From NCBI GenBank assembly GCA_028823235.1, contig JAPKBW010000008.1:62001-126000 (forward strand): a DNA stretch of 64,000 nt. The letters run 5' to 3'. The position numbers were made by a program, and so were the translations under genes. How positions within the stretch are numbered: the first letter of the stretch is position 1; each line of letters opens with the position of its first letter. Below are positions 1 through 14,464 of the stretch, in pieces. This DNA comes from Longimicrobiales bacterium. Its GTDB lineage: Bacteria > Gemmatimonadota > Gemmatimonadetes > Longimicrobiales > Gaopeijiaceae. The notes below the pieces were generated by a model. The model ran no database searches. It saw only the letters and a list, made by a program, of their open reading frames with translations, and was not told where the DNA came from.

Positions 1-604
1 TCCCTGTGGCGCCGTACACGAGCGCAATTCCGTACAGAAAGAATCCGGTCGAGAAAGCTCCGAGCAGGAAGTACTTGAGGCCCGCCTCCGCCGACTTCCT
101 GTCCCTCCGATTGAAGGCAGCCAATGCGTACACCGCGATCGACATGACCTCGAGACCGAGGAAGATGACGATTAGGTCACGCGCGCCGGCCATGAACATC
201 ATCCCTGCCGTGGCGAGCAGGATCAGGCCGTAGAATTCACCGGCCTGCAGCCGCTGCCGATACACATAGGCGAAAGAGACCAGAATGGTGAGAGCGGCCG
301 CCACAAGGAAAATCCAGTTAGCGAAGAGTCGGAACCCATCGATGGCGATCATCGAGGTCCGGCCGACTTCGGTGACCCCGTAAAGCCATCCGTTCGCAAG
401 AGCTGCAAGCAGGACCCCCGCGAGGGCTAGCCAACCGAGATCGGCGGCCCCACCAAAGCTCGGGTCATTCGAATCTTGTTCCATTCCCGGCTTGTGCTTC
501 CCGGATACGCCGGCAACGAGCACACCCATCCCCCACACGCAGAGGATCACCTCCGGCATGAGCGCGAAAAAAAAGTGGAGCTGACGGCTGAAGTCTAGTT
601 CCAT
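1..604 (-). CDS. nuoN: NADH-quinone oxidoreductase subunit N (partial, C-terminus beyond window)
   Basis: This is the antiporter-like membrane subunit of respiratory complex I, one of three homologous proton-pumping modules in the cytoplasmic membrane. The first 201 codons are present, and the frame stays open to base 1, so the C-terminal half is missing. It begins at an ATG 11 bases after the nuoM stop. Visible features are an N-terminal membrane segment, then segments around residues 55-75 and 85-110, and the NuoN-typical region with DLIVIFLGLEVMSIAVYAL (residues about 144-162) followed by GLKYFLLGAFSTGFFLYG. It is the last gene of the operon in reading order. The identification rests on this conserved core and on position directly after nuoM. 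Confidence 0.95.
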   Translation of the reverse strand, partial: MELDFSRQLHFFFALMPEVILCVWGMGVLVAGVSGKHKPGMEQDSNDPSFGGAADLGWLALAGVLLAALANGWLYGVTEVGRTSMIAIDGFRLFANWIFLVAAALTILVSFAYVYRQRLQAGEFYGLILLATAGMMFMAGARDLIVIFLGLEVMSIAVYALAAFNRRDRKSAEAGLKYFLLGAFSTGFFLYGIALVYGATG

Positions 605-615
605 GGTGATTCGGC

Positions 616-2289
616 CTATTCGTCGCCGTCGGCGATGACATCTGCTGCGTCATCGCTCGTGGGATCTGCAGTCGGGTCGTCGGACACTGCGTTCGCATCG
701 GACGAGCCCATTTCAATGAGGGCGGAAGTGGTTTCGCCCGGGAGGTCGAGGCCCTGCTCTTCAAGAAGCGACACCTGGGCGTTGGCTGACTCGACCCGCT
801 CGATCACGGCGCGCACGCTGGGCTCCATGCGTTCGAGAACCGGGGTCGGATTCCAGCCGAGGATGATCATGAGGGCACAAAGAGGCGCGAGGATGACCAT
901 CTCTCGCCGGCTGAGGTCTTCGATCTTCCGATTCTCTTCCGACTCAAGCTTGTTGAAGAAAACCGTCTGCACCATCGGTAGCATGTAGTAAGCTGCGAAG
1001 ATCACGCCCGTGGTCGCGAGAAAAGCCAGCACCGGGTGCGTTTCGAAGGCACCGAGCAGCACGAGGAACTCACCAACGAATCCGCTGGTCCCCGGCAGGC
1101 CGATGGATGCGAGTGCCGTGATCAGGAAGGCTGTTGCAAACCAGGGAGCGACGCGGGCGATACCACCGAATTCGGATATCGTCCTCGTATGCCTGCGCTC
1201 ATACAACATGCCGAGCAATAGAAACAAGGCACCCGTGCTGATTCCGTGAGAGATCATGACGAGCAAGCCGCCCTGTAGACCGTTCACAGTCAGCGCGAAT
1301 ATCCCAAGCACGACGAACCCCATGTGGGCTACAGACGTGTAGGCTACCAGTTTCTTCGCATCCGGCTGGACAGCTGCGACCCAAGCCGTATAGAGGATTC
1401 CGATGACCGCGAGCACCATCATAGTCGTCACGACCGTGGGGTGCTGCGCCGCGAGCGGGAAGAGCGGGAGTAGGAACCGGAGAAATCCATATGTCCCCAT
1501 TTTCAGCAATACAGCTGCCAGAATAACGGACCCAGGGGTCGGCGCTTCGACGTGGGCGTCAGGCAGCCATGTGTGAAAAGGGAATAGTGGGACCTTTACG
1601 CTGAAAGCCAATGCGAAGGCGGCAAAGAGCCACAGTTGCTCCGTGCCAGTGAGTGGTACCTGGAGAAGGTCCGCGTAGGCGAAGGTAGGGAAACCAAGGA
1701 GCGTCTTGGCCTTCCAGAAAAGGAAGAGGATCCCGACCAGCATCAGCAATGAGCCGAAGGCCGTGTAGAGGAAGAACTTGATGGCCGCGTAGATCCGGCG
1801 GTCACCGCCCCATACACCGATCATGAAGTACATCGGCACGAGGGTAAGCTCGAAGAATACGTAGAACAGGAATACGTCTGTCGCCGAGAAGACACCTATG
1901 ACGGCGGCTTCGAGCAGGAGCATGAGTGCGTAAAAAGCACGCTGCTTCTCGCCGATGTAGTTGAACGAACCCAGGATCGCGATGGAGGTGCTGAACGTCG
2001 TCAGCATCACCATGAACAGGCTGATCCCGTCGATACCCAGTGAGTAGTTCACACCCCACCCTAAAATCCAGGAGGTGGAACTCTCCATCTGCATGCCCAC
2101 GTGTGCCGGGTCGAAAGCCCACCACAACCCAAGGCTTAGCACGAAGACCCCGATGGACCACCAGAACGCGACGGTCTTCGCCTGGCCTTCTTCAGCCCAC
2201 AGGACGAGACCGATGCCGAGAACCGGAAGCCAGATCAGCGCGTGAAGTGCCCAGCCCGCGTATCCGATCGAATCAAGTAGTGAAGTCAT
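616..2289 (-). CDS. nuoM: NADH-quinone oxidoreductase subunit M
   Basis: This 557-residue integral membrane protein is a proton-pumping antiporter-like subunit of complex I. About 14 membrane segments are expected. The family core is visible as ELTLVPMYFMIGVWGG (residues about 148-163, with the essential Glu), then the conserved stretch KVPLFPFHTWLPDAHVEAPT (about 232-251). The ATG at 2289 lies 12 bases beyond the nuoL stop. The C-terminus carries an acidic tail of about 40 residues, rich in Asp, Ala and Ser and ending DAADVIADGDE. This tail is longer than in most NuoM proteins and is probably a disordered cytoplasmic or periplasmic extension. Confidence 0.97.
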   Translation of the reverse strand: MTSLLDSIGYAGWALHALIWLPVLGIGLVLWAEEGQAKTVAFWWSIGVFVLSLGLWWAFDPAHVGMQMESSTSWILGWGVNYSLGIDGISLFMVMLTTFSTSIAILGSFNYIGEKQRAFYALMLLLEAAVIGVFSATDVFLFYVFFELTLVPMYFMIGVWGGDRRIYAAIKFFLYTAFGSLLMLVGILFLFWKAKTLLGFPTFAYADLLQVPLTGTEQLWLFAAFALAFSVKVPLFPFHTWLPDAHVEAPTPGSVILAAVLLKMGTYGFLRFLLPLFPLAAQHPTVVTTMMVLAVIGILYTAWVAAVQPDAKKLVAYTSVAHMGFVVLGIFALTVNGLQGGLLVMISHGISTGALFLLLGMLYERRHTRTISEFGGIARVAPWFATAFLITALASIGLPGTSGFVGEFLVLLGAFETHPVLAFLATTGVIFAAYYMLPMVQTVFFNKLESEENRKIEDLSRREMVILAPLCALMIILGWNPTPVLERMEPSVRAVIERVESANAQVSLLEEQGLDLPGETTSALIEMGSSDANAVSDDPTADPTSDDAADVIADGDE

Positions 2290-2301
2290 GGTCAGCGTCC
2301 C

Positions 2302-4476
2302 CTAAAACAGGCTGGCGCCGAGGACGAACAACACCCCAACGGTGAGGATGAACGCATAGGTGTTAACGGATCCTGTCTGGAACATGCTCACGGCCCACCC
2401 AATCCCCTTCGCCAACCACCCGACTGCGTTCACAGTGCCGTCGATGATGCCCGCGTCGATGACCTTCCAGCAGAACCGGGAGGCAGAGATGATCGGCTGG
2501 ACGACAAAGCGATCGTATGCCTCGTCCACGTAGTATTTATTGTAAAGGAGTGCACTGATTCCGGTGAGTTCGGTCTTGTCTTGAGCGGCCGGGACAATCT
2601 CCTGCTTCCCGACGAACAGGATCGAGAGGAAGACCACGACGCCGGCGGCGACCGTGGAAATCACTGCCCAGACCACTTCTCCACCTCCAAACGGCGCACT
2701 CTCAGACACACTGCCAAGATTCACTTCCTGGATGTGATGGGCCTGAGCGGTGAGCGGCTCGAGCCAGTGATGCAGCCACTCGGTCATCGGAAGAAAGCCC
2801 ATACCGCCGAGGAACGAGTTCTGAATCGCCTCGGGGACGTTGATCCACCCGCCGAAAATCGAAAGCACGGCGAGGATCGCGAGCGGGATCCACATGACTG
2901 GCGGGGCCCCATGCAGGTGCTTGGCCTCTTCTTCGCCTGTACGGTTCGTTCCGTGGAAAGTCATGACCATCATGCGGGTCATGTAGAACGCGGTCAGCAT
3001 CGCGGCAGCGAGAGCAAGAATCCAATAGACCGTATAGAGGGTTGGATATGGGGCGTTCGCTGCGCCACCAAAGGCTGCGGTCTGCCAGATAATTTCATCT
3101 TTCGAGAAAAATCCGGCAAACGGCCAGATGCCGGCGATCGCGAATGTCGCGATCCACATTGTGGTCCATGTGATGGGCAAGAAGACCTTGAGCCCACCCA
3201 TGTTGCGCATGTCCTGTGCGTCTTCGTGGTTGTGCGTGTTGTGATACGCCTCATGCATTGAGTGAATCACAGCACCAGCCCCCATGAATAGAAGCGCCTT
3301 GAAGAAGGCGTGGGTCATGAGGTGGAAGACGCCCGCGGTGTACGCTCCCACTCCCACGGCGATGAACATGAATCCGAGCTGCGAGACCGTAGAGTAGGCA
3401 AGAACCTTCTTGATATCGTTCTGCTTGAGCGCGATGGTCGCCGCAAACAGCGCAGTCAGAACACCGATTCCTGCGACCACGGCACTCGTAACAGGCGAAA
3501 GTGCGAACAGCACCGACGACCGGACCACGAGATAGACGCCTGCGGTGACCATTGTCGCCGCGTGGATCAGGGCTGAGACCGGAGTCGGGCCTGCCATCGC
3601 GTCGGGCAGCCAGACGTACAACGGCATCTGCGCACTCTTTCCGACCGCGCCCAGGAAGAAGAAGAGCGTGATCGCCGTGACCAGACCACCCGCATACTCG
3701 AGTGTTTGTGCCTCATGGAAGACCTGGATGAAGTCGACCGTGCCGAACGCTTTGTACAGCAAGAACATCGCGATGAGGAAGCCGACGTCGCCGATGCGAT
3801 TTACGATGAACGCCTTCTTGCCGGCGTCCGCCTTTTCCCGGTCACTGAACCAATAGCCGATCAGGAGATAGGAACAGAGCCCCACTCCTTCCCAGCCGAC
3901 GAACATCAGCGCGTAGCTAGATCCCATGACGAGGACGAGCATGAAGAAGACGAAAAGATTCAGATATGCGAAATACCGCGGATATCCGGAATCTTCCTTC
4001 ATGTAGCCGACGCTAAAGATGTGAATCAGCGTTCCGACGCCCGTGACGACCATCATCATGATAATCGAGAGCTGATCGAGCTGGATCGCGGCGTTCACCG
4101 TGAAAGTGCCTGTGGCGATCCAGGTCCAATACTCAATGACCACAGGTGCTTCGAGGTGTGCCCCCAGCATCCGCGTGAAGTTCACGGCGGTGATCAGGAA
4201 GGCCAGCGCCATGACACCGGGGCCGATCCATGTGGGAAGCGTGTGCGTCGCAGGCCTCGACGACGAGTCTCCGAGGTCGAGTTCCCCACCGGCACGCACC
4301 GCATTTGCGGAGTCGCGGCCGTGCTGAAGGGCGAGCCACCCATTGGCCAGAAAGCCGAGTAGTGGCAACAAGATCACGAAGCCCGGGAAGAAAGGCTCGA
4401 AATGCGCGCCCTCGCCCGCGGCCTGTCCGCCTCCCTGCAGAAGGGCGATCAGCGAAGTCGTCATGCCGGTCACCAT
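2302..4476 (-). CDS. nuoL: NADH-quinone oxidoreductase subunit L
   Basis: This 724-residue subunit is the distal proton-pumping module of complex I and carries the long lateral helix. It contains [19 protein letters not shown] (residues about 192-210, essential Glu) and [20 protein letters not shown] (about 281-300), both diagnostic of NuoL. It is longer than the E. coli protein (613 residues), with extra sequence between the pump core and the C-terminal anchor. Two starts are possible, the ATG at 4476 overlapping the nuoK stop and the ATG at 4464. The first was chosen because it gives the tight overlap seen elsewhere in the operon. Confidence 0.97.
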
Positions 4477-4763
4477 TTCAAGACGTTGAAGCTGTCCACA
4501 TTCACCGTCTCATAGTGACGGAAAATCGAGATGATGATTGCGAGTCCGACCGCCGCCTCAGCAGCGGCCACCGTCATCACGAAAAACACAAAGATCTGGC
4601 CGTCGATGCCCCATACGCGCGAGAATGCGACGAAGCTCAAATTCACCGCGTTGAGCTGTAGCTCAATGCAGAGGAACATGATGATCGCGTTTCGGCGCAC
4701 GAGGACACCAAAGGTCCCGATGACGAAAAGGATCGCGCTGAGTACGAGCGCCTCGGTGACCAT
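4470..4763 (-). CDS. nuoK: NADH-quinone oxidoreductase subunit K
   Basis: This 97-residue membrane subunit of complex I has three membrane segments, the usual NuoK size. The conserved proton-path Glu lies in the second helix within the stretch [20 protein letters not shown] (residues about 28-47). The second membrane Glu lies in [20 protein letters not shown] (about 65-84). The start ATG shares its A with the nuoJ stop (TGATG), indicating translational coupling. The 3' end overlaps the chosen nuoL start by 7 bases. Confidence 0.97.
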
Positions 4764-5272
4764 CAGACGTCCCTCTTTGCGAGCACGAGTGCGCCCACGA
4801 TGGCTACGAGCAACAGGATTCCCGTGATCTCGAATGGCACCACGTAGGTCGTGTAAAGTGTTTCAGCAATCGCACCTACGGCGCCATGTTCGGCGATCGC
4901 TGCGTCGATCGCGACTCCGCCGGAGCCCGCCGTCATACCGGCACCTCCGAGGCGGGTGGCCAGGATGCCGGCGATCCCGCCGATGATGCCGAACGAAAGT
5001 ACGGCGAACGCCCCTCCCTTCAGGTCCTTCTGGTAGTCATGCCCGAGGTTCAGGAGCATGATCACAAACAGGAAGAGCACCATAATGGCGCCCGCGTATA
5101 CGATAATTTGGATCGCGGCGAGGAAGTGGGCCTCGAGCAGGACGAACGTCGCAGCCATGGCCCCAAGCGTTGTCACCATGAAGAGGAGACTTCCCACAGG
5201 GCTTTTTGCCATCACGACGCCGATCGCGCCACCGATTGCGAGTCCCGCGAAGAGGTAGAACAGGAAGATCAT
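4763..5272 (-). CDS. nuoJ: NADH-quinone oxidoreductase subunit J
   Basis: This 169-residue subunit is the membrane protein of complex I next to NuoK, with five membrane segments. The family core [20 protein letters not shown] (residues about 55-74) contains the conserved Tyr-Ala-Gly-Ala of the pi-bulge helix. It starts 9 bases after the nuoI stop and its own stop overlaps the nuoK start by one base. A loop of about 25 Gly/Ala-rich residues (about 108-135) between the last helices is somewhat longer than usual. Length and position agree with NuoJ. Confidence 0.96.
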
Positions 5273-5281
5273 GTCCGGCCG

Positions 5282-5782
5282 TTACTCCGAGTCGGGATCC
5301 GAGGGATCCCAGAGAAGTGTGGACGGGTGGTCTTGCTCCATGAGTCGATCCAGGTCGTAGACGAATCGGTCTCGCGTGTATTCGGCATTCTCGAAATGCT
5401 GGCCCACATGAATCGCTTCAACAGGGCACACTTCCTGGCACATGCCGCAAAAAATACAGCGAAATTCGTCGATCTCGTAGACGATCGGGTAACGATTCCC
5501 TTGGTCGTCTTCACCTCCGACGAGGCGGATGCAGTTTGCTGGGCATACCGTCGGGCACAGGCCACAAGCCACGCACTTTGGTCGACCGTCCGCATGGGTT
5601 TCCATGACGTGCGTGCCGCGCCATCGGGGGCTCAGGTCCGTCTGCTCCTCCGGGTACTGCTGTGTGATTTTGTTGGGATTGACCATGTGTTTAAAGGTCA
5701 ACGCCATTCCGCTCAGCGCGGCTCGCAGATACGACGTTGTATCCGGGTCCGGCCGGTGCATCACTTTGACAGAAATCGTCAT
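5282..5782 (-). CDS. nuoI: NADH-quinone oxidoreductase subunit I, two [4Fe-4S] clusters
   Basis: This 166-residue peripheral-arm subunit carries the N6a and N6b clusters that pass electrons towards N2. Both ferredoxin motifs are complete: C70-x2-C73-x2-C76-x3-C80 and C109-x2-C112-x2-C115-x3-C119. The frame is open upstream to 5950, but that extension lies inside nuoH in another frame. The ATG at 5782 gives the normal NuoI length and sits 4 bases after the nuoH stop, so it was preferred. The C-terminal tail after residue 125 is acidic. Confidence 0.95.
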   Translation of the reverse strand: MTISVKVMHRPDPDTTSYLRAALSGMALTFKHMVNPNKITQQYPEEQTDLSPRWRGTHVMETHADGRPKCVACGLCPTVCPANCIRLVGGEDDQGNRYPIVYEIDEFRCIFCGMCQEVCPVEAIHVGQHFENAEYTRDRFVYDLDRLMEQDHPSTLLWDPSDPDSE

Positions 5783-5786
5783 TTGA

Positions 5787-7106
5787 TCAGTCTCCGGCAG
5801 TGGCTGGCTCAGGCTGCTTGGAGGCTTCTCGCGCCGCCATTGCCTGAGGAATCGTCTTGATCTCGACCAATTGAGCACGCTGAGCTGCCCCACCCGTGAT
5901 TGTGCGACCACGGTCGAGGAAGAACATGAAAGCGAACGTGGCGGCGCCACTCACTGCGGTCAGCACCAGGCCGTAAGTGAAGCCATATGTCATACCCACT
6001 TCTTCAATGACCAGGATCGTCATTGCGACGAGCATGACGTAGGCGAGTGAGGTCGGCAGCATGACCTTCCAGCCCAACGCCATCACCTGGTCATAACGGA
6101 ACCGAGGTAGCGTCCACCGAATCCAAATGTAGAGCAGCAGGAAGAGTCCTGTCTTCGCCGCGAAGCCTCCGAACGTCGCCAGTGTCTTCAGCAGACTGGG
6201 CTGTGCGAGGATCACGCTGCCGTCCGCTGCGAAGCCTCTGATGAGCTGCCCGTTGAGCCAAAACGCATCATCCCAGGTCCCGGGCAAGTCCCATCCGCCG
6301 AGAAACAGCGTCGCCATGAGGGCGGAAGCCGTCACCATGTGGCCGAACTCGGAGATCATGAAAGCCGAGAACTTCATGGCCGAGTACTCGGTGTGATAGC
6401 CTGTGACAAGCTCGGACTCCGCCTCTGGCATATCGAACGGAAGTCGGTTGGTCTCCGCAAACGCTGAGATCACGAACAGAATGAACGCGAATGAAAGCGG
6501 GAACGCGTACCACATTCCAAGCTGTTGTTGCTTCCAGATGATCTCGGTCAGGGTCACGTTCCCAGACATCATGAGGACTGCGATCAATGACAGACCGAGC
6601 GCGACTTCGTAGCTGACCATCTGGGCCGAAGCCCGCAGCCCGCCAAGGAACGCATACTTGTTGTTCGATGCCCACCCGCCCAGCACGACCCCATATACGG
6701 CGAGAGAGCTGAAGGCCAGCACGTAGAGGATGCCGATGGGAACGTCCGCGATGACCATGTCGACCACACCCCATGGCGTTGGCAACGGAGCGGCGATCGG
6801 AATGACCGCGAAGGTCATCAGCGAAGGGACCAGCACTAGAATTGGTGCGAGCACGAAGAAAAAACGCGAGGCCGTAGCCGGCAGCGTTTCCTCCTTGAGG
6901 ATGTTCTTCACGCCGTCCGCGAGCGGCTGAAGAAGCCCGAACGGACCGACACGGTTCGGTCCGCGGCGATCCTGGATAAAGGCCGAGACTCGTCGCTCGG
7001 CAAGCGTCGCGTACGCCACCACCACAATCACGAGACCAAAAATGGTAGTGTTCTTCAGCACCATGGCGATGATCGCCGGCAGGCCCTCGATCGGTTGCAA
7101 GCCCAT
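5787..7106 (-). CDS. nuoH: NADH-quinone oxidoreductase subunit H with C-terminal extension
   Basis: This quinone-site membrane subunit of complex I is 439 residues long against about 325-340 usually. The standard part is clear: LAERRVSAFIQDRRGPNRVG (residues about 31-50), an ETNRLPFDMPEAESELVTGY segment (about 218-237) and RWTLPRFRYDQVMALGWKVM (about 337-356). After the usual end there is an additional pair of hydrophobic segments and a hydrophilic tail of about 45 residues ending in PEPATAGD. The gene lies between nuoG and nuoI with a 5-base gap to nuoG. The extension is seen directly; its role is unknown. Confidence 0.96.
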   Translation of the reverse strand: MGLQPIEGLPAIIAMVLKNTTIFGLVIVVVAYATLAERRVSAFIQDRRGPNRVGPFGLLQPLADGVKNILKEETLPATASRFFFVLAPILVLVPSLMTFAVIPIAAPLPTPWGVVDMVIADVPIGILYVLAFSSLAVYGVVLGGWASNNKYAFLGGLRASAQMVSYEVALGLSLIAVLMMSGNVTLTEIIWKQQQLGMWYAFPLSFAFILFVISAFAETNRLPFDMPEAESELVTGYHTEYSAMKFSAFMISEFGHMVTASALMATLFLGGWDLPGTWDDAFWLNGQLIRGFAADGSVILAQPSLLKTLATFGGFAAKTGLFLLLYIWIRWTLPRFRYDQVMALGWKVMLPTSLAYVMLVAMTILVIEEVGMTYGFTYGLVLTAVSGAATFAFMFFLDRGRTITGGAAQRAQLVEIKTIPQAMAAREASKQPEPATAGD

Positions 7107-7111
7107 ACCCC

Positions 7112-8707
7112 TCAGTCTCCCGTCAAGGAAACGGATTCGTTGATGACGGCCCCGCGGGACCCAACATCGTCGTAGCTGATGCCGCTAAATGCGGGCACCT
7201 GCTTTCCGACAGAAGCGAACGCGTCAGCCGCGCAGCGGAAGATGTCCCCACTGGACCGCTCAGCGCTCAACGCTCCGAGAATGAGCCACGCCGGGCGTGA
7301 CATGCCGGGGGCCTGAAGCGCGCCGTCAAAGTGCTGCACCCGGCCCTCAAAGTTCGTGAAGGTGCCTTCCGATTCAGCGTGGCTCGTCACGGGAAGAACG
7401 TAGTCCGCGTTCGACGCTGCAGGGCTGTCATGGGTTCCGAGGTAAATATAGAGGCCAGCGTTCTCACCGAAGTCCACCGGCTGATCCGGTAGTGAATCGC
7501 CGAGAACGATGACGATGCCGTCATGCCCGGCGACCGACTCGAGCCCTCCGGATGCGTCATCCGCACCAACCCTTGTCATGTTCATGAGGTCGGCCGCGGT
7601 AGCGTTCGGCGAGAGGTCCTTCCGTCGCACCAACTGCGGGAAGCCCTTCAGCGGAACTTCATCTCCTGCTGCAGAAGAGCGATACACGATGTCACCCCCG
7701 CCAAGGGCGTCCACCACACTCGAGAGGGCGGCCAGGTCCTCGTTGGAGGAAAAGGGCGAGGCGACTGCCTTGACCGACACGTTGTCGAGGCCATCTACCC
7801 TGTCGAGGAGGCCCTTGAGGGCGTCCTTCCAACCTGATGCCTCCGATAAGGAATCGACTCGTGCGAGCGGCTCATCCAGTCGGTTGCCTTGATTCATCCA
7901 TTCATAGTTGTGGCGCCCGTAATCGCAAATCCACCAGGCGTTTACGTCAAGGTTCTCACGTGGCTTGATTCGCTGAACCAGGTTGTCTCGGGAATGCAGG
8001 TCGATGTTGCAACCTTGCGAGCAGCTCGTGCAGACCGACGGAGTGTGCGTCAGGTCCCATGCCCGGGCTTTGTGCAAAAAGTCTTTGGAGACCAGCGCGC
8101 CGACCGGGCAAATGTCGACGATGTTGCCGTGCCAGTTCGTGCCTTCGAGTCCCTCGTCAAAGAACGTGTCGATCACCGAGCGATTGCCTCGCTCAACCAC
8201 CGTCAGTCGATGGTCTTGCTCGACCTCACTCATGAAGCGGACACAGCGCGTGCACATCACGCATCGGTCACCGTAGAACAGGATATCCCCACCGAAATCG
8301 TCGCGGCCGAAAACCCGCTTGGGTTCGCGCCCACGTCCGTGCTCACGACCCTCTGCGTGGACGTAATCCTGAAGATCGCACTCGCCCGACATGTCGCAGA
8401 TCGGGCAATCGAGCGGGTGATTGACGAGGTAGAACTCGAGCACGCCCTGGCGGTTGCTCTTCGCCTGCTCGGACTGAGTGTTGACGACCTGACCGTCCAT
8501 GACGGTGGTGACACACCCCGGCATCGGCTTCGGCGCACCCTCCACCTCTACCAGGCAGAGGCGGCACATCGCCGGAGAGGACATCCCGGGATGGTAGCAG
8601 TAATGGGGCACCTCCGACCCGATCGTCTTGGCGGCTTCGAGAATCGTGGTTCCCCGCGGAACCGAGACCTCGTGGCCATCGATCGTGAGATTGACCATCG
8701 CGGCCAT
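7112..8707 (-). CDS. nuoG: NADH-quinone oxidoreductase subunit G (short form, N7 ligands kept)
   Basis: This iron-sulfur subunit of the NADH arm is 531 residues long. Ligand sets read in order: [2Fe-2S] N1b with C37, C48, C51 and C65; N5 with H97, C101, C104 and C110; N4 with C149, C152, C155 and C200; and a fourth set C226-x2-C229-x3-C233-x27-C261, the off-pathway N7 motif. The molybdopterin-oxidoreductase-like domain after residue 280 is much shorter than in the roughly 900-residue E. coli protein. The ATG at 8707 overlaps the nuoF stop by one base; a GTG at 8710 and an ATG at 8698 are alternatives. Confidence 0.95.
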   Translation of the reverse strand: MAAMVNLTIDGHEVSVPRGTTILEAAKTIGSEVPHYCYHPGMSSPAMCRLCLVEVEGAPKPMPGCVTTVMDGQVVNTQSEQAKSNRQGVLEFYLVNHPLDCPICDMSGECDLQDYVHAEGREHGRGREPKRVFGRDDFGGDILFYGDRCVMCTRCVRFMSEVEQDHRLTVVERGNRSVIDTFFDEGLEGTNWHGNIVDICPVGALVSKDFLHKARAWDLTHTPSVCTSCSQGCNIDLHSRDNLVQRIKPRENLDVNAWWICDYGRHNYEWMNQGNRLDEPLARVDSLSEASGWKDALKGLLDRVDGLDNVSVKAVASPFSSNEDLAALSSVVDALGGGDIVYRSSAAGDEVPLKGFPQLVRRKDLSPNATAADLMNMTRVGADDASGGLESVAGHDGIVIVLGDSLPDQPVDFGENAGLYIYLGTHDSPAASNADYVLPVTSHAESEGTFTNFEGRVQHFDGALQAPGMSRPAWLILGALSAERSSGDIFRCAADAFASVGKQVPAFSGISYDDVGSRGAVINESVSLTGD

Positions 8708-9999
8708 CACGCAGCCCCCACTCTTTCACCGCGACGGATCAACGACAGGTACTCATCTCTGAATTTCTCGATGGACGATTGTACTGGAGCCGCGACGGAG
8801 TCACTAAGCACACAAATCGTGGTTCCGACCATCTGTTGCGTCATCTGCATGAGCGTATCTAGATCGCCCTCGGTGCCACGGCCATCCTCGATGCGCCGAA
8901 GAATCTGGGCAGTCCAAGCCGAACCTTCGCGACACGGTGTGCACTGGCCGCATGACTCATGTGCATAGAAGTCGACCATGCGTCGAACCTGCTTCACGAT
9001 GTCGGCGGTCTCGTCCATCACGATGACGGAGGCGCAGCCGAGCATCGTGCCGACTTCGACACAGCCTTCGTAGTCGAGCGTGCACCGACCAGCTTCTTCG
9101 GCATTGATGATCGGGACTGAAGATCCCCCGGGAATCACCGCTTTGAGCGCATTGCCATCGCGCATCCCACCACACACTTCCTCGATCAATTTCATGAGCG
9201 GGAAGCCGAGGGGGAGCTCGTAATTGCCGGGCTTGTTCACGTGTCCGCTAACGCAGAAAAGCTTTGTACCAGGGCTCTTTTCTGTGCCGTACTGACGATA
9301 CCACGCGCCGCCATTCGTCACGATGTGCGGTATCGCACAAAGGGTTTCGACGTTGTTGATGGTCGATGGCATGCCAAAGGCGCCCACAGCAGCCGGAAAC
9401 GGTGGCTTCACGCGAGGCTCCCCACGGCGGCCTTCGAGTGAGTTCATTAGACCGGTCTCTTCACCGCAAATATAGGCACCAGCCCCCTGATGCACCGTGA
9501 GGTCGAGGTCATTACCCGAGCCCATGATGTCCTTGCCGAGGTACCCCTTGGCGTAGGCGTCCTCTACCGCTCGGGCTAGTACCTGATTGGCTTCGAAGAA
9601 CTCGCCTCTGCAGTAGATATAGACATGCTGCGCTCCAATCGCGTAGGCGCCGATGAGGCACCCCTCGATGAGCTGGTGCGGATCCCACCGCATGAGCTCG
9701 CGATCCTTGAATGTGCCAGGCTCGGACTCATCTGCGTTGCAAAGCAGATAGTGTGGCCTTCCCGACTCCTTTGGCATGAACGACCACTTCACACCCGTCG
9801 GGAAGCCAGCTCCACCTCGGCCGCGCAGGCCCGATTCCTTCACCGTGTTCACCACGCCCTCCGAGCCCAATTCGAACGCCTTCTTCAGGGCCTGGTATCC
9901 GCCTCGCTCGACATAGGTGTCGATGCGACGCTGCATCGGGTCACCGAAGTACTTGCTGAGTACTTGGACTTCATGCTCGGAAACGTATGGGTAGGCCAT
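8707..9999 (-). CDS. nuoF: NADH-quinone oxidoreductase subunit F, FMN/NADH site
   Basis: This 430-residue subunit oxidises NADH with FMN and carries the N3 [4Fe-4S] cluster. It shows the nucleotide-binding GLRGRGGAGFPTG motif (residues about 58-70), the NADH-contact segment CNADESEPGTFKDR (about 87-100), the GAGAYICGEETGLMNSLEG segment (about 170-188) and the cluster motif ESCGQCTPCREG (about 350-361) with a fourth Cys near residue 400. Length matches the family. It starts 3 bases after the nuoE stop and its stop overlaps the nuoG start. Confidence 0.97.
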   Translation of the reverse strand: MAYPYVSEHEVQVLSKYFGDPMQRRIDTYVERGGYQALKKAFELGSEGVVNTVKESGLRGRGGAGFPTGVKWSFMPKESGRPHYLLCNADESEPGTFKDRELMRWDPHQLIEGCLIGAYAIGAQHVYIYCRGEFFEANQVLARAVEDAYAKGYLGKDIMGSGNDLDLTVHQGAGAYICGEETGLMNSLEGRRGEPRVKPPFPAAVGAFGMPSTINNVETLCAIPHIVTNGGAWYRQYGTEKSPGTKLFCVSGHVNKPGNYELPLGFPLMKLIEEVCGGMRDGNALKAVIPGGSSVPIINAEEAGRCTLDYEGCVEVGTMLGCASVIVMDETADIVKQVRRMVDFYAHESCGQCTPCREGSAWTAQILRRIEDGRGTEGDLDTLMQMTQQMVGTTICVLSDSVAAPVQSSIEKFRDEYLSLIRRGERVGAA

Positions 10000-10002
10000 C
10001 GA

Positions 10003-10656
10003 CTACTCCCCCTGTCCCTTGAGGTGCTCACAAATCTTAGGCACCTCGGTACGGGTCACGTTCTCGAAATATCGCGAGTTGATCTGTACGCAGGTCGGAT
10101 AGCCGCACGCTGCCAGGCATTCGGCCTCAATGACGGTGAACTCACCGTCTTCAGATGTCTCGCCCAATTCGGTATCGGTGTAGCGGAGGAACGCCTCTAC
10201 GACCTCGTCGGCACCCGCCAGATTGCAGGAGATATTCGTGCAGACCTGAACGAGGTGTCGGCCCACAGGGCGCTTGTTGTACATCGTGTAGAACGTGGCC
10301 ACCCCTCGTACATACGCCGGTGACAGTTCCAGTAGCTCCGCGACACGATCCATGGACTCGGGGCTAACATGCCCCCGCAGCTCCTGCGCCAAACCGAGCG
10401 CTGGCAAAAGAGCAGCCTGTTTGGTGGGATAGCGCGTAAGGATTTTCTCGAATCGCTCCTGATACTCACCCTCGAAAAGCGGTGCTTCCGGCTGCTTGTC
10501 TGCGAGCATGTATGGAAGGGTTCCCGCACCTGACGCATGTCCTCCGTGGGCGGGTCGATTTCCGACAAAGTCATCACCGCGGACCTGGTCTTCCGTGAGG
10601 TCGAATTCACCGGTGTTTCCGGCCCAGCCCGGGTTCTTGAAGGGGATATCGCTCAT
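10003..10656 (-). CDS. nuoE: NADH-quinone oxidoreductase subunit E, [2Fe-2S]
   Basis: This 217-residue thioredoxin-fold subunit of the NADH arm carries the N1a cluster. The four ligands are C139-x4-C144 and C180-x3-C184, in CTNISC and ECLAAC contexts. The first 55 residues form a Gly- and acid-rich extension that short NuoE proteins (about 165 residues) lack and that is probably disordered. The start ATG overlaps the nuoD stop by 4 bases (ATGA), which supports this start over a downstream Met. Confidence 0.96.
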   Translation of the reverse strand: MSDIPFKNPGWAGNTGEFDLTEDQVRGDDFVGNRPAHGGHASGAGTLPYMLADKQPEAPLFEGEYQERFEKILTRYPTKQAALLPALGLAQELRGHVSPESMDRVAELLELSPAYVRGVATFYTMYNKRPVGRHLVQVCTNISCNLAGADEVVEAFLRYTDTELGETSEDGEFTVIEAECLAACGYPTCVQINSRYFENVTRTEVPKICEHLKGQGE

Positions 10657-11933
10657 CTGTCGATCTCACCCAAGACGATGTCGAGACTGGCGTTGATCAT
10701 GATTAGGTCAGACAAGAGGTGCCCTGTCGCGAGTTTCGGGATCACCGAAAGGTTCACGAATGACGGCGGACGAACGCGCCACCGCACTGGCTTTGTGCTC
10801 CCCTCTTCCGCAACCACGTACATGCCGAGCTCGCCCTTGGATGCCTCGATTGCCATATAGCAGTCACCCTCGGGGGCAGGAATGCCCTCGGTGATCAACT
10901 TGAAGTGATGAATCATGCTCTCCATGTCGGACATCGCATCCGTCTTGGAAGGCAGAGAGATGTTCGGGTCTTCCACGTTGATCGGCCCATCGGGCAAACG
11001 CTTCATTGCCTGACGCAGGAGACCCACGGACTGTGTCATCTCCTCCATCCGGCACAGGTAGCGATCATAGCAATCGCCGTGCTCACCGATCGGGACTTCG
11101 AAATCGTAGGTTTCGTAGTCGTAGTAAGGGCGATCCTTGCGAACATCGTAGGCCACGCCAGCGGCACGCAGATTCGGGCCTGTGAAGCCGTAGTTGATGG
11201 CGTCAGCGGCAGAAATCGATCCGATGCCTTGCGTTCGCCCGATATGGATCTGGTTCCCGGTAAGAAGGCGGTGCACCTCACCCAGGGTTTTAGGGAACTC
11301 ATCCAGAAATTCGACGAGCTGATCAAGCCAGCCCTTCGGGAGATCAGCCATCATACCACCAACACGCGTTGCGGATGTGGTAATCCGGGCACCAGTTAGC
11401 GCCTCATGTAGCTGGTAGATCTTCTCGCGCTGCTGGAACGAATACAGGAAGGGGGTGAACGCGCCCACATCAATCGCAGTGGTCCCGAGCCAGAGGAGGT
11501 GCCCGAAGATTCGGTCCAGCTCCATGAGGATGACTCGGACGACCTTGCAGCGCTCCGTGACCTCAATGCCCATGAGCTTCTCGACGGACATGACGTACGC
11601 GCAGTTGTAGATCAGCGGCGCGAGGTAGTCCATCCGGTCAGTGAGCGGGACAATCTGGTTCCAAGTCCGGTACTCGCCGAGCTTCTCGAACGATGAGTGC
11701 AGGTAGCCGATGTGTGGTACGATCTCGGTTACGGTCTCACCATCAAGCTCGCACACGAGACGAAGTACACCGTGCGTCGCAGGGTGTTGTGGCCCGAGGT
11801 TAATGAGCATGCGCTCCGTTCCAATATCGGGCTCCGGGATGTCGAAGGGCGCGAGCGGACTCGGAGTCCCTGCCCCACCCACACCCATCTCCCGACCCTG
11901 TCCGATATTGAACTCGACGGTGTTGCTGGACAT
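10653..11933 (-). CDS. nuoD: NADH-quinone oxidoreductase subunit D
   Basis: This 426-residue subunit is the 49-kDa-type protein that forms the quinone-binding pocket with NuoB and NuoH. Diagnostic stretches are INLGPQHPATHGVLRLVCEL (residues about 45-64), HIGYLHSSFEKLGEYRTWNQ (about 76-95, containing the quinone-contacting His) and the C-terminal SLDIVLGEIDR. NuoC and NuoD are separate proteins here, not the enterobacterial NuoCD fusion. Its start overlaps the nuoC stop by one base. Confidence 0.97.
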   Translation of the reverse strand: MSSNTVEFNIGQGREMGVGGAGTPSPLAPFDIPEPDIGTERMLINLGPQHPATHGVLRLVCELDGETVTEIVPHIGYLHSSFEKLGEYRTWNQIVPLTDRMDYLAPLIYNCAYVMSVEKLMGIEVTERCKVVRVILMELDRIFGHLLWLGTTAIDVGAFTPFLYSFQQREKIYQLHEALTGARITTSATRVGGMMADLPKGWLDQLVEFLDEFPKTLGEVHRLLTGNQIHIGRTQGIGSISAADAINYGFTGPNLRAAGVAYDVRKDRPYYDYETYDFEVPIGEHGDCYDRYLCRMEEMTQSVGLLRQAMKRLPDGPINVEDPNISLPSKTDAMSDMESMIHHFKLITEGIPAPEGDCYMAIEASKGELGMYVVAEEGSTKPVRWRVRPPSFVNLSVIPKLATGHLLSDLIMINASLDIVLGEIDR

Positions 11934-12646
11934 CAGGTCTCTCCCCCGCCGGATTCACTGGGACTGATCGCTCCGCCGACTTCGGCGGCTGCTACTTCCT
12001 GGGGGGCACCACCACGAACGAGGTCCTCGGCGAGATAGAAGCGCTCTACATTCTGGTTCAGTGCCCGACGCGTCTGCTCGGCCCGAGAGAAGCGTCCGCG
12101 GAGCGGGAAGTCCTTCCGTAACGGATGGCCTTCCGCATAATCGTCCGGCATCAAGATTCGGCGATGGTCCGGGTGATTTCGGAAGGTTACCCCGAATAGG
12201 TCATAGACTTCTCGTTCAAGCCAGTTGGCGGCCTGCCAGAGGTCCACGACGGAATCGATCTCGAGGGCATCAAGCGGGAGTTCACACCGGATGCGCAGAG
12301 CGAGCTTATAAGTCGTCGAGTACATCTGGTAGACGACATTGATGGGACGGCCGTTCCCATAGTCGAGGCCCGTGACGTCGGACATCATGTCGTACAAGTG
12401 GTCCGGGTCATCCTTCAACCATTCGAGGATCTCGTGGCTGCGATCCGGCTTCATCCACACGACATACTGGTCACCAGCGTTCAGTCGATAGCGGACAATT
12501 TCATCCGGGTATCGGTCAAGAAGCGCCGCAAGCGTCGGGTGTTCGTCCGGTGACCCCGTAGACCCCTGGCCACCTCCACTGTCGGTGGACGATGAAACCG
12601 GGCCTTCCTCAACCGCGTCGAGCCCACTAATGCTGTCATCTGCCAT
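11933..12646 (-). CDS. nuoC: NADH-quinone oxidoreductase subunit C
   Basis: This 237-residue peripheral-arm subunit is the 30-kDa type. The family signature is the block WLEREVYDLFGVTFRNHPDH (residues about 145-164) followed by RRILMPDDYAEGHPLRKDFP (about 165-184). It carries an N-terminal extension of about 35 residues rich in Gly, Ser and Asp and a C-terminal tail of similar character, both probably disordered. It starts 4 bases after the nuoB stop. No catalytic residues are expected, since it is a structural subunit. Confidence 0.96.
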   Translation of the reverse strand: MADDSISGLDAVEEGPVSSSTDSGGGQGSTGSPDEHPTLAALLDRYPDEIVRYRLNAGDQYVVWMKPDRSHEILEWLKDDPDHLYDMMSDVTGLDYGNGRPINVVYQMYSTTYKLALRIRCELPLDALEIDSVVDLWQAANWLEREVYDLFGVTFRNHPDHRRILMPDDYAEGHPLRKDFPLRGRFSRAEQTRRALNQNVERFYLAEDLVRGGAPQEVAAAEVGGAISPSESGGGET

Positions 12647-12650
12647 GGTG

Positions 12651-13355
12651 TCAGGAGAGGAGGTCGTCGGGGACGGTGTCGGGAGCCACGATGATGCCCC
12701 CGGTCAACTGGTCCTGCTGCGTCGAATTTCCAAACGGACCCGTGAGGCCTACGACCTCGGCCGCACTGGCGCGAGGCAGGGCAACGAGCGCTGGGTCTTC
12801 GGCGCGATGCTCGAAGTGCTTGGAAAGGCTCTCCTCCCGGATCTTCTCCTGAATCATCATCAGACCGTAGATGAGTCCTTCAGGACGCGGCGGACAGCCC
12901 GGGATGTAGACATCCACGGGAATGATAGTGTCGATTCCCTGCACCATGGAGTAGACGTCGAAGACACCGCCCGAACTGGCGCAGGCACCCATCGAAATCG
13001 ACCATTTGGGCTGCGGCATTTGGTCCCAGATGCGGCGAAGGACCGGCGCGAGCTTGTAAGGGACCCGTCCAGCGCAAATCAGGACGTCCGCCTGGCGTGG
13101 GCTGAAGGACATCCGCTCCATACCAAAACGGGCGAGATCGTAGTTGGAAGCCGCCGACGCCATCATTTCAATGGCACAGCACGCAGTGCCGAAGGGCATC
13201 GGCCAGAGCGAGTTCATTCTGCCCCAGTTGATGAGTGCGTCGACCTTGCTGGTGAAGAATGTCGGAGTCTCCGCTCCAAATCCTCCGGTCGTGGCAGAAA
13301 CACCACCTCCGGGAAGAATGTCACCTAGTCCCACTCGAGACCTCCTTTCTTCCAC
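12651..13355 (-). CDS. nuoB: NADH-quinone oxidoreductase subunit B, N2 cluster
   Basis: This 234-residue subunit carries the terminal [4Fe-4S] cluster N2, which reduces quinone. The four ligands are visible as the tandem C59-C60, then C125 (MGACASSGG) and C154 ([10 protein letters not shown]). The ATG at 13355 makes the gene overlap nuoA by 31 bases; no later Met precedes the conserved core except one at residue 47. The C-terminal 60 residues extend past the usual end and are variable in this family. Length and ligand spacing fit a functional protein. Confidence 0.97.
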
Positions 13356-13681
13356 TCATACACGAGTCCGATCGCCAGAACGGCGACGAACATGGTCATC
13401 GACAAGAAGGCACTCCAGCCCAGCTCCCGCATGTGGACCGCCCAAGGGATCAGGAAGATCGTCTCCAAGTCAAAGACGATGAAGCTGATCGCCACCATAT
13501 AGAACTTCACGGAGAAACGCGCTCGGGTACTCCCGAGCGGGATCATGCCCGATTCGTAGGGCATCAGCTTCTGTGGTGTGTCACGACGCGGGTTGAAAAT
13601 GTGCGAAGTGACGACCATACCCAACGCGTTCACTATGGAGACGCAGAAGAGTACGAGTAGGGGGAGATAGGCTCCCGACAT
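13325..13681 (-). CDS. nuoA: NADH-quinone oxidoreductase subunit A
   Basis: This 118-residue membrane subunit has three membrane segments, the normal NuoA size. The conserved loop after the first helix ([20 protein letters not shown], residues about 39-58) and the [20 protein letters not shown] helix (about 59-78, with the acidic residues in FDLE) identify it. It is the first gene of the operon. No strong Shine-Dalgarno is visible before its ATG, and the candidate Rex operator lies 16-33 bases upstream of that ATG. Confidence 0.96.
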
Positions 13682-13696: not shown

Positions 13697-13714
13697 TTGT
13701 GAAATATTTCACGA
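13697..13714. promoter_or_regulatory. Candidate Rex operator upstream of nuoA
   Basis: The 18 bases TTGTGAAATATTTCACGA form a near-perfect inverted repeat, of which the central 14 bases GTGAAATATTTCAC are exactly palindromic. This agrees at all but one fixed base with the Rex (redox-sensing repressor) consensus TTGTGAA-N4-TTCACAA as I know it. It lies 16-33 bases before the nuoA start, where a repressor would block transcription. Rex senses NADH/NAD+ and controls nuo in some actinobacteria. That Rex acts here is inference; no rex gene is in the window. Confidence 0.75.
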
Positions 13715-13909
13715 GCTATGCTGACCGCCGAAAAGGTACCCGACGCGCGGATGGAGTGTCAACCGCAGGAAGTGAGTATTTTCATAGGATTTCGCCGGTT
13801 TGACCGACCTTCCCAGTCTCGCCTATCTTGCCCCCCCCGCGGGATCCGGAATTCGGTTTCCAACACTTCGGTCCGCGTCCCTGCAAACCCGCCCGGAGAA
13901 CAGCAGTCG

Positions 13910-14464
13910 ATGTCGATCAAGAGTGACAAGTGGATACGCCGAATGTGCGAAGAGCAGCAGATGATCGAGCCCTTCGAGACCGGCCAAGTCCGGGACGGCA
14001 AGATTTCGTACGGCATCTCTTCGTATGGTTACGACATCCGGGTTTCGCCTGAGTTCAAGGTGTTCACCAACGTCCACAACACCGTTGTCGATCCGAAGCA
14101 TTTCGACGACCGCTCCTTTGTGGACATCGTGGGCCCTGAGTGCATCATCCCTCCAAATTCCTTTGCGCTTGCCCGCACCGAAGAGTATTTCCGGATTCCG
14201 CGAGATGTCCTGGTCCTGTGTGTCGGAAAGTCGACCTATGCCCGATGCGGGCTGATCGTGAACGTCACGCCGCTGGAGCCGACGTGGGAGGGCTACCTCA
14301 CACTCGAGATCTCGAACACGACCCCCCTGCCGGCGAAGGTCTACGGGGGTGAGGGTATTGCTCAATTGCTCTTCTTCCAAGGAGACGAAGAGCCGGAAAT
14401 CGCTTACGCTGACAGGAAAGGCAAATACATGAACCAGGTCGGGGTCACACTTCCCAAGATGTAG
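13910..14464 (+). CDS. dcd: dCTP deaminase
   Basis: This 184-residue cytoplasmic enzyme converts dCTP to dUTP (or directly to dUMP in bifunctional forms) for dTTP synthesis. Family motifs are [13 protein letters not shown] (residues about 31-43) and the active-site block [20 protein letters not shown] (about 106-125), which holds the conserved Ser, Arg and Glu. [12 protein letters not shown] follows. The frame is open further upstream, but the ATG at 13910 follows a GGAGA Shine-Dalgarno by about 9 bases and gives the normal family length. It is divergent from nuo, and no partner gene lies in the same direction. Confidence 0.95.

Follow-up and report, generated by a model that had tools for sequence, protein, structure and literature searches.

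A predicted operator for the NADH-responsive repressor Rex before the complex I genes of a Longimicrobiales bacterium (Gemmatimonadota)

The palindrome at positions 13697 to 13714 of the window (the 64,000-nt stretch of a Longimicrobiales genome analyzed here as a whole) is very likely an operator for the Rex repressor encoded by the same genome, located within the nuoA-N operon leader, where it would subject complex I to NADH-responsive repression. Several features were observed directly: the site itself, its promoter context, a rex gene with an operator of its own, the conservation of the site and its loss together with rex. The preliminary description had already read the palindrome as a near-consensus Rex operator, one base off and 16 to 33 bases before nuoA. 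Its sequence and coordinates were confirmed, and the reading gained support from the presence of rex, from the same operator at rex, from the conservation of the site at nuoA and from its absence in most genomes that lack an ordinary rex (five of seven). In a limited search of the open literature, we found no report of Rex in Gemmatimonadota, the phylum to which the known Rex circuit can very probably be extended.

On the forward strand the palindrome reads TTGTGAAATATTTCACGA (TCGTGAAATATTTCACAA on the nuo strand), and a motif scan gave a single mismatch to TTGTGAA-N4-TTCACAA (TTGTGAANNNNTTCACAA), located in the arm distal to nuoA. It lies at -16 to -33 relative to the nuoA ATG (13681, minus strand) and is the only match to the consensus with fewer than three mismatches in the window. 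Matches with at most one mismatch numbered three in the 3.14-Mb genome (before nuoA, before rex and at C14:18277), the chance expectation being 0.11 per genome under a composition model with 61% GC. Predicted -35 and -10 elements lie upstream of the operator (Table 1), which puts it shortly past the presumed start of transcription. A promoter of the form TTGAC[AC]-N17/18-TAnnnT was predicted upstream of the nuo operator in 58 of 64 genomes, and in all but one of these 58 the operator adjoins it, starting 8 to 19 nt past the predicted -10 (18 nt in the source genome), so that Rex would occupy the DNA at, or slightly beyond, the point where transcription starts. The family-model search covered nuoA alone among the nuo genes, and nuoN is truncated by the edge of the window. 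The divergent dcd-like gene is not expected to be under the control of the nuo operator, since a promoter-like TTGACC-N18-TATCTT at 13800-13829, clear of the operator, faces it.

Table 1. Features of the nuo region, in window positions
Feature	Position	Strand	Basis or remark
Predicted Rex operator, nuo leader	13697..13714	minus	1 mismatch to consensus and conservation before nuoA
-10 element TACCTT, predicted nuo promoter	13733..13738	minus	upstream of operator
-35 element TTGACA, predicted nuo promoter	13757..13762	minus	18-bp spacer to -10
nuoA, first gene of complex I operon	13325..13681	minus	NCBIfam NuoA models, E 2e-30, below curated cut-offs
nuoB	12651-13355	minus	contiguous same-strand ORF; name from sequence and gene order
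nuoC	11933-12646	minus	contiguous same-strand ORF; name from sequence and gene order
nuoD	10653-11933	minus	contiguous same-strand ORF; name from sequence and gene order
nuoE	10003-10656	minus	contiguous same-strand ORF; name from sequence and gene order
nuoF	8707-9999	minus	contiguous same-strand ORF; name from sequence and gene order
nuoG through nuoN, in that order	2..8710	minus	contiguous same-strand ORFs; names inferred from gene order
dcd-like gene (dCTP deaminase), divergent	13910..14464	plus	name from translated sequence

The lack of a rex homologue had been named beforehand as an outcome that would speak against this assignment, and a single rex gene was found. Its product of 216 amino acids scored over the cut-off with both the winged-helix model PF06971 (61.9 bits) and the NCBIfam Rex model NF003995 (232.7 bits versus a cut-off of 126), and could be aligned over nearly its full length, winged-helix and NAD-binding domains included, to solved Rex structures. 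Twelve DNA-contacting residues have been listed for Thermotoga maritima Rex (PMC8836258), and 11 of them are identical in the source-genome protein, among them Arg48 and Lys49, the two that read the bases. The protein also keeps Tyr100, Asp115 and Lys120, which contact NAD(H), while Lys43 is replaced by Thr and Asn92 by Arg. The named records closest to it come from metagenome genomes of Gemmatimonadota, some of them labelled Longimicrobiales or Gemmatimonadales. The operator of rex itself, TCGTGAAGAATTTCACAA, has one mismatch to the consensus and is found 22 nt before the predicted TTG start, and in many relatives the rex operator overlaps the -10 region of the gene.

Conservation was evaluated in the region upstream of nuoA in an order-level sample of 70 genomes from three families, counting as a site any match with up to two mismatches; nuoA orthologues were recovered from 73 of 79 genomes. 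The site was present in 64 of the 70 and appeared again upstream of nuoA in several more families elsewhere in the class, and the palindrome thus withstood the other test set in advance, its conservation before nuoA. The distance to the start codon was mostly 13 to 30 nt, with 33 to 94 nt in a few genera. Across the 64 sites, positions 3 to 6 (GTGA) and 12 to 17 (TTCACA) are invariant, and the 24 columns preceding the site average about 0.2 bits. The six genomes lacking the site comprise three without rex (G020, G023 and G059), two with only a divergent Rex (G031 and G041) and one exception, G021, in which an ordinary rex is present. Overall, 62 of 63 genomes that carry an ordinary rex have the site, versus two of seven without such a gene (P = 1e-5, shared ancestry ignored), and the assemblies of these two are 63% and 72% complete. 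In the wider class, the rex-less members G122, G149, G146 and G151 have no site at nuoA, and some members possess rex although no site immediately precedes the nuoA examined. Among 150 genomes sampled from the phylum, strict sites were wholly absent from 9 of the 14 rex-less ones versus 2 of the 136 that have rex (P = 1e-9, shared ancestry ignored, and with one genus counted four times in the rex-less set beside unrelated genera). This natural series of genomes, in which rex and the site were lost together, is one reason why the system deserves attention.

The only Rex of G031 and G041 is 32 to 33% identical to that of the source genome; the nuoA site is altered to GTGACCGATTTCAC in both, and no good site was found near their divergent rex genes. 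A coevolution of regulator and site in these two genomes is possible.

Other explanations of the palindrome appear improbable to different degrees. A regulator of the CRP/FNR family would recognize TGTGA-N6-TCACA, which shares its core and spacing with the Rex site, so that the two motifs overlap in sequence, and the genome does have one CRP-type helix-turn-helix match over the cut-off (PF13545, 44.8 bits). However, the left arm of the nuo sites is CGTGA or AGTGA, and TGTGA, needed in both arms, is found there in 0 of 64; moreover, the same motif precedes rex itself, and the loss of the site tracks that of rex. We therefore rejected a CRP/FNR site on the grounds of the left-arm sequence and the co-loss with rex, and consider it very unlikely.

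The palindrome might also act as an RNA hairpin that controls translation or termination instead of as a protein-binding DNA site, since it falls in the presumed transcribed leader and could form a 5-bp hairpin. This is slightly less probable still. It was rejected because folding was no better than that of shuffled sequences (z = -1.0). In addition, we found no intrinsic terminator, position 2 (C or A) never pairs with position 17 (A), the arms are invariant instead of covarying, and in relatives the motif at rex overlaps the -10 region of that gene. As for a chance palindrome, nothing beyond the single mismatch to the consensus can be said in its favor; with 3e-6 such matches expected per 100 bp of upstream sequence, and with a conservation throughout the order that already refutes it, its probability is negligible.

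Under the Rex operator reading, which we prefer, binding of Rex at the nuo site, its release by NADH and the resulting repression are inferred from the behavior of the family. At a low ratio of NADH to NAD+, Rex would bind immediately past the nuo promoter and block initiation or early elongation of nuo transcription. A build-up of NADH would make Rex leave the site, allowing complex I to be produced and NADH to be re-oxidized. Among the closest known parallels is Streptomyces avermitilis, where the Rex regulon (nuoA1-N1, atp and rex) was established by electrophoretic mobility shift assay (EMSA), ChIP and footprints, with direct repression of nuoA1-N1, atp, cyd and rex, and where NADH lowers Rex binding (PMC5355995). 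The protein family, the TTGTGAANNNNTTCACAA motif before nuoA1-N1, atpI and rex, and nearly the same set of targets are shared with that species, although its nuo operator covers the -35 element and spacer (PMC5355995), whereas that of the source lineage is downstream of the predicted -10. The Rex family repressors of Bacillota, Thermus and Thermotoga, whose consensus (Ravcheev et al. 2012) is quoted in PMC5317091 and PMC13077300, also share the protein family, the DNA-contact residues and the motif with the source-genome system. As is generally known, and in line with these papers, they act mainly on fermentation, hydrogen and cytochrome bd genes, in contrast to the aerobic respiratory chain operons predicted as targets in the source lineage. 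The oxidative phosphorylation operons of Gemmatimonadota, a widespread, little-cultured phylum, would come under the control of a known NADH sensor.

Position 2 distinguishes the operators of nuo from those of rex. Each of the 64 nuo sites has C or A there and none has T (position 1 being T or A), while T is found at position 2 in 59 of 63 rex operators (P = 7e-32, of descriptive value only, since the genomes are related). The rex operator of the source genome also has C at this position, and the contrast is therefore a property of the order and not one found within this genome. Because position 2 of the nuo operator is always off consensus, its affinity may be below that at rex, and together with the position downstream of the -10 this suggests that the nuo operator is the weaker of the two and of a roadblock type. 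A more specific proposal, possible but rather doubtful, is that Rex in this lineage serves almost solely to regulate its own gene and complex I, with ATP synthase as a further target, and that the nuo operator, a roadblock past the start site, has been held weaker than that of rex, its position 2 never being T, so that complex I would be derepressed at lower NADH than rex. The consistent difference between the nuo and rex sites lends itself to testing whether a gradation of operator strength has been maintained over long evolutionary times.

To define the extent of the regulon, strict matches were taken as GTGAANNNNTTCACAA in whole-genome searches. In 16 of 20 genomes all of them were explained by nuoA and/or rex, with both present in 13 of these 16. 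Sites at cyd, ndh and adhE, anticipated in the preliminary description, were absent at high stringency, as were, in the source lineage, the cyd, ndh and hppA sites known from S. avermitilis (PMC5355995); the remaining recurrent sites lie at atp and close to a cox cluster. Roughly half of the relatives examined have a degenerate asymmetric site, TTGCGNNNNNTTTCACAA, before the ATP synthase operon, represented in the source genome by TTGCGCTTTTTTTCACAA at C15:34086-34103, 774 nt before atpB. The left arm of the atp site may at the same time serve as a -35 element; in the rex-less G059, this arm is retained and the TTCACAA arm is lost. Sites with two or three mismatches in the source genome are mostly inside genes and look like chance.

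Another Rex-like palindrome, at C12:27455, falls within the opening codons of a DUF192-like lipoprotein gene that is divergent from a cluster of small protein, cytochrome c, coxB and coxA genes. This palindrome is conserved in the genus while the encoded residues vary, and the source-genome version has two mismatches. The site at C14:18277 lies between a gene for a secreted TPR protein and a thioesterase-like gene, and is slightly altered (TTGCGAATTTATTCACAA) in two other members of the genus. Finally, genomes of one genus of the family, g25, contain 15 to 40 strict matches each, on both strands and often at gene starts or within genes (G037, and also G123, G128, G129, G131, G134, G137, G162, G189 and G198), which could mean either that the Rex regulon has expanded or that the palindrome is spreading.
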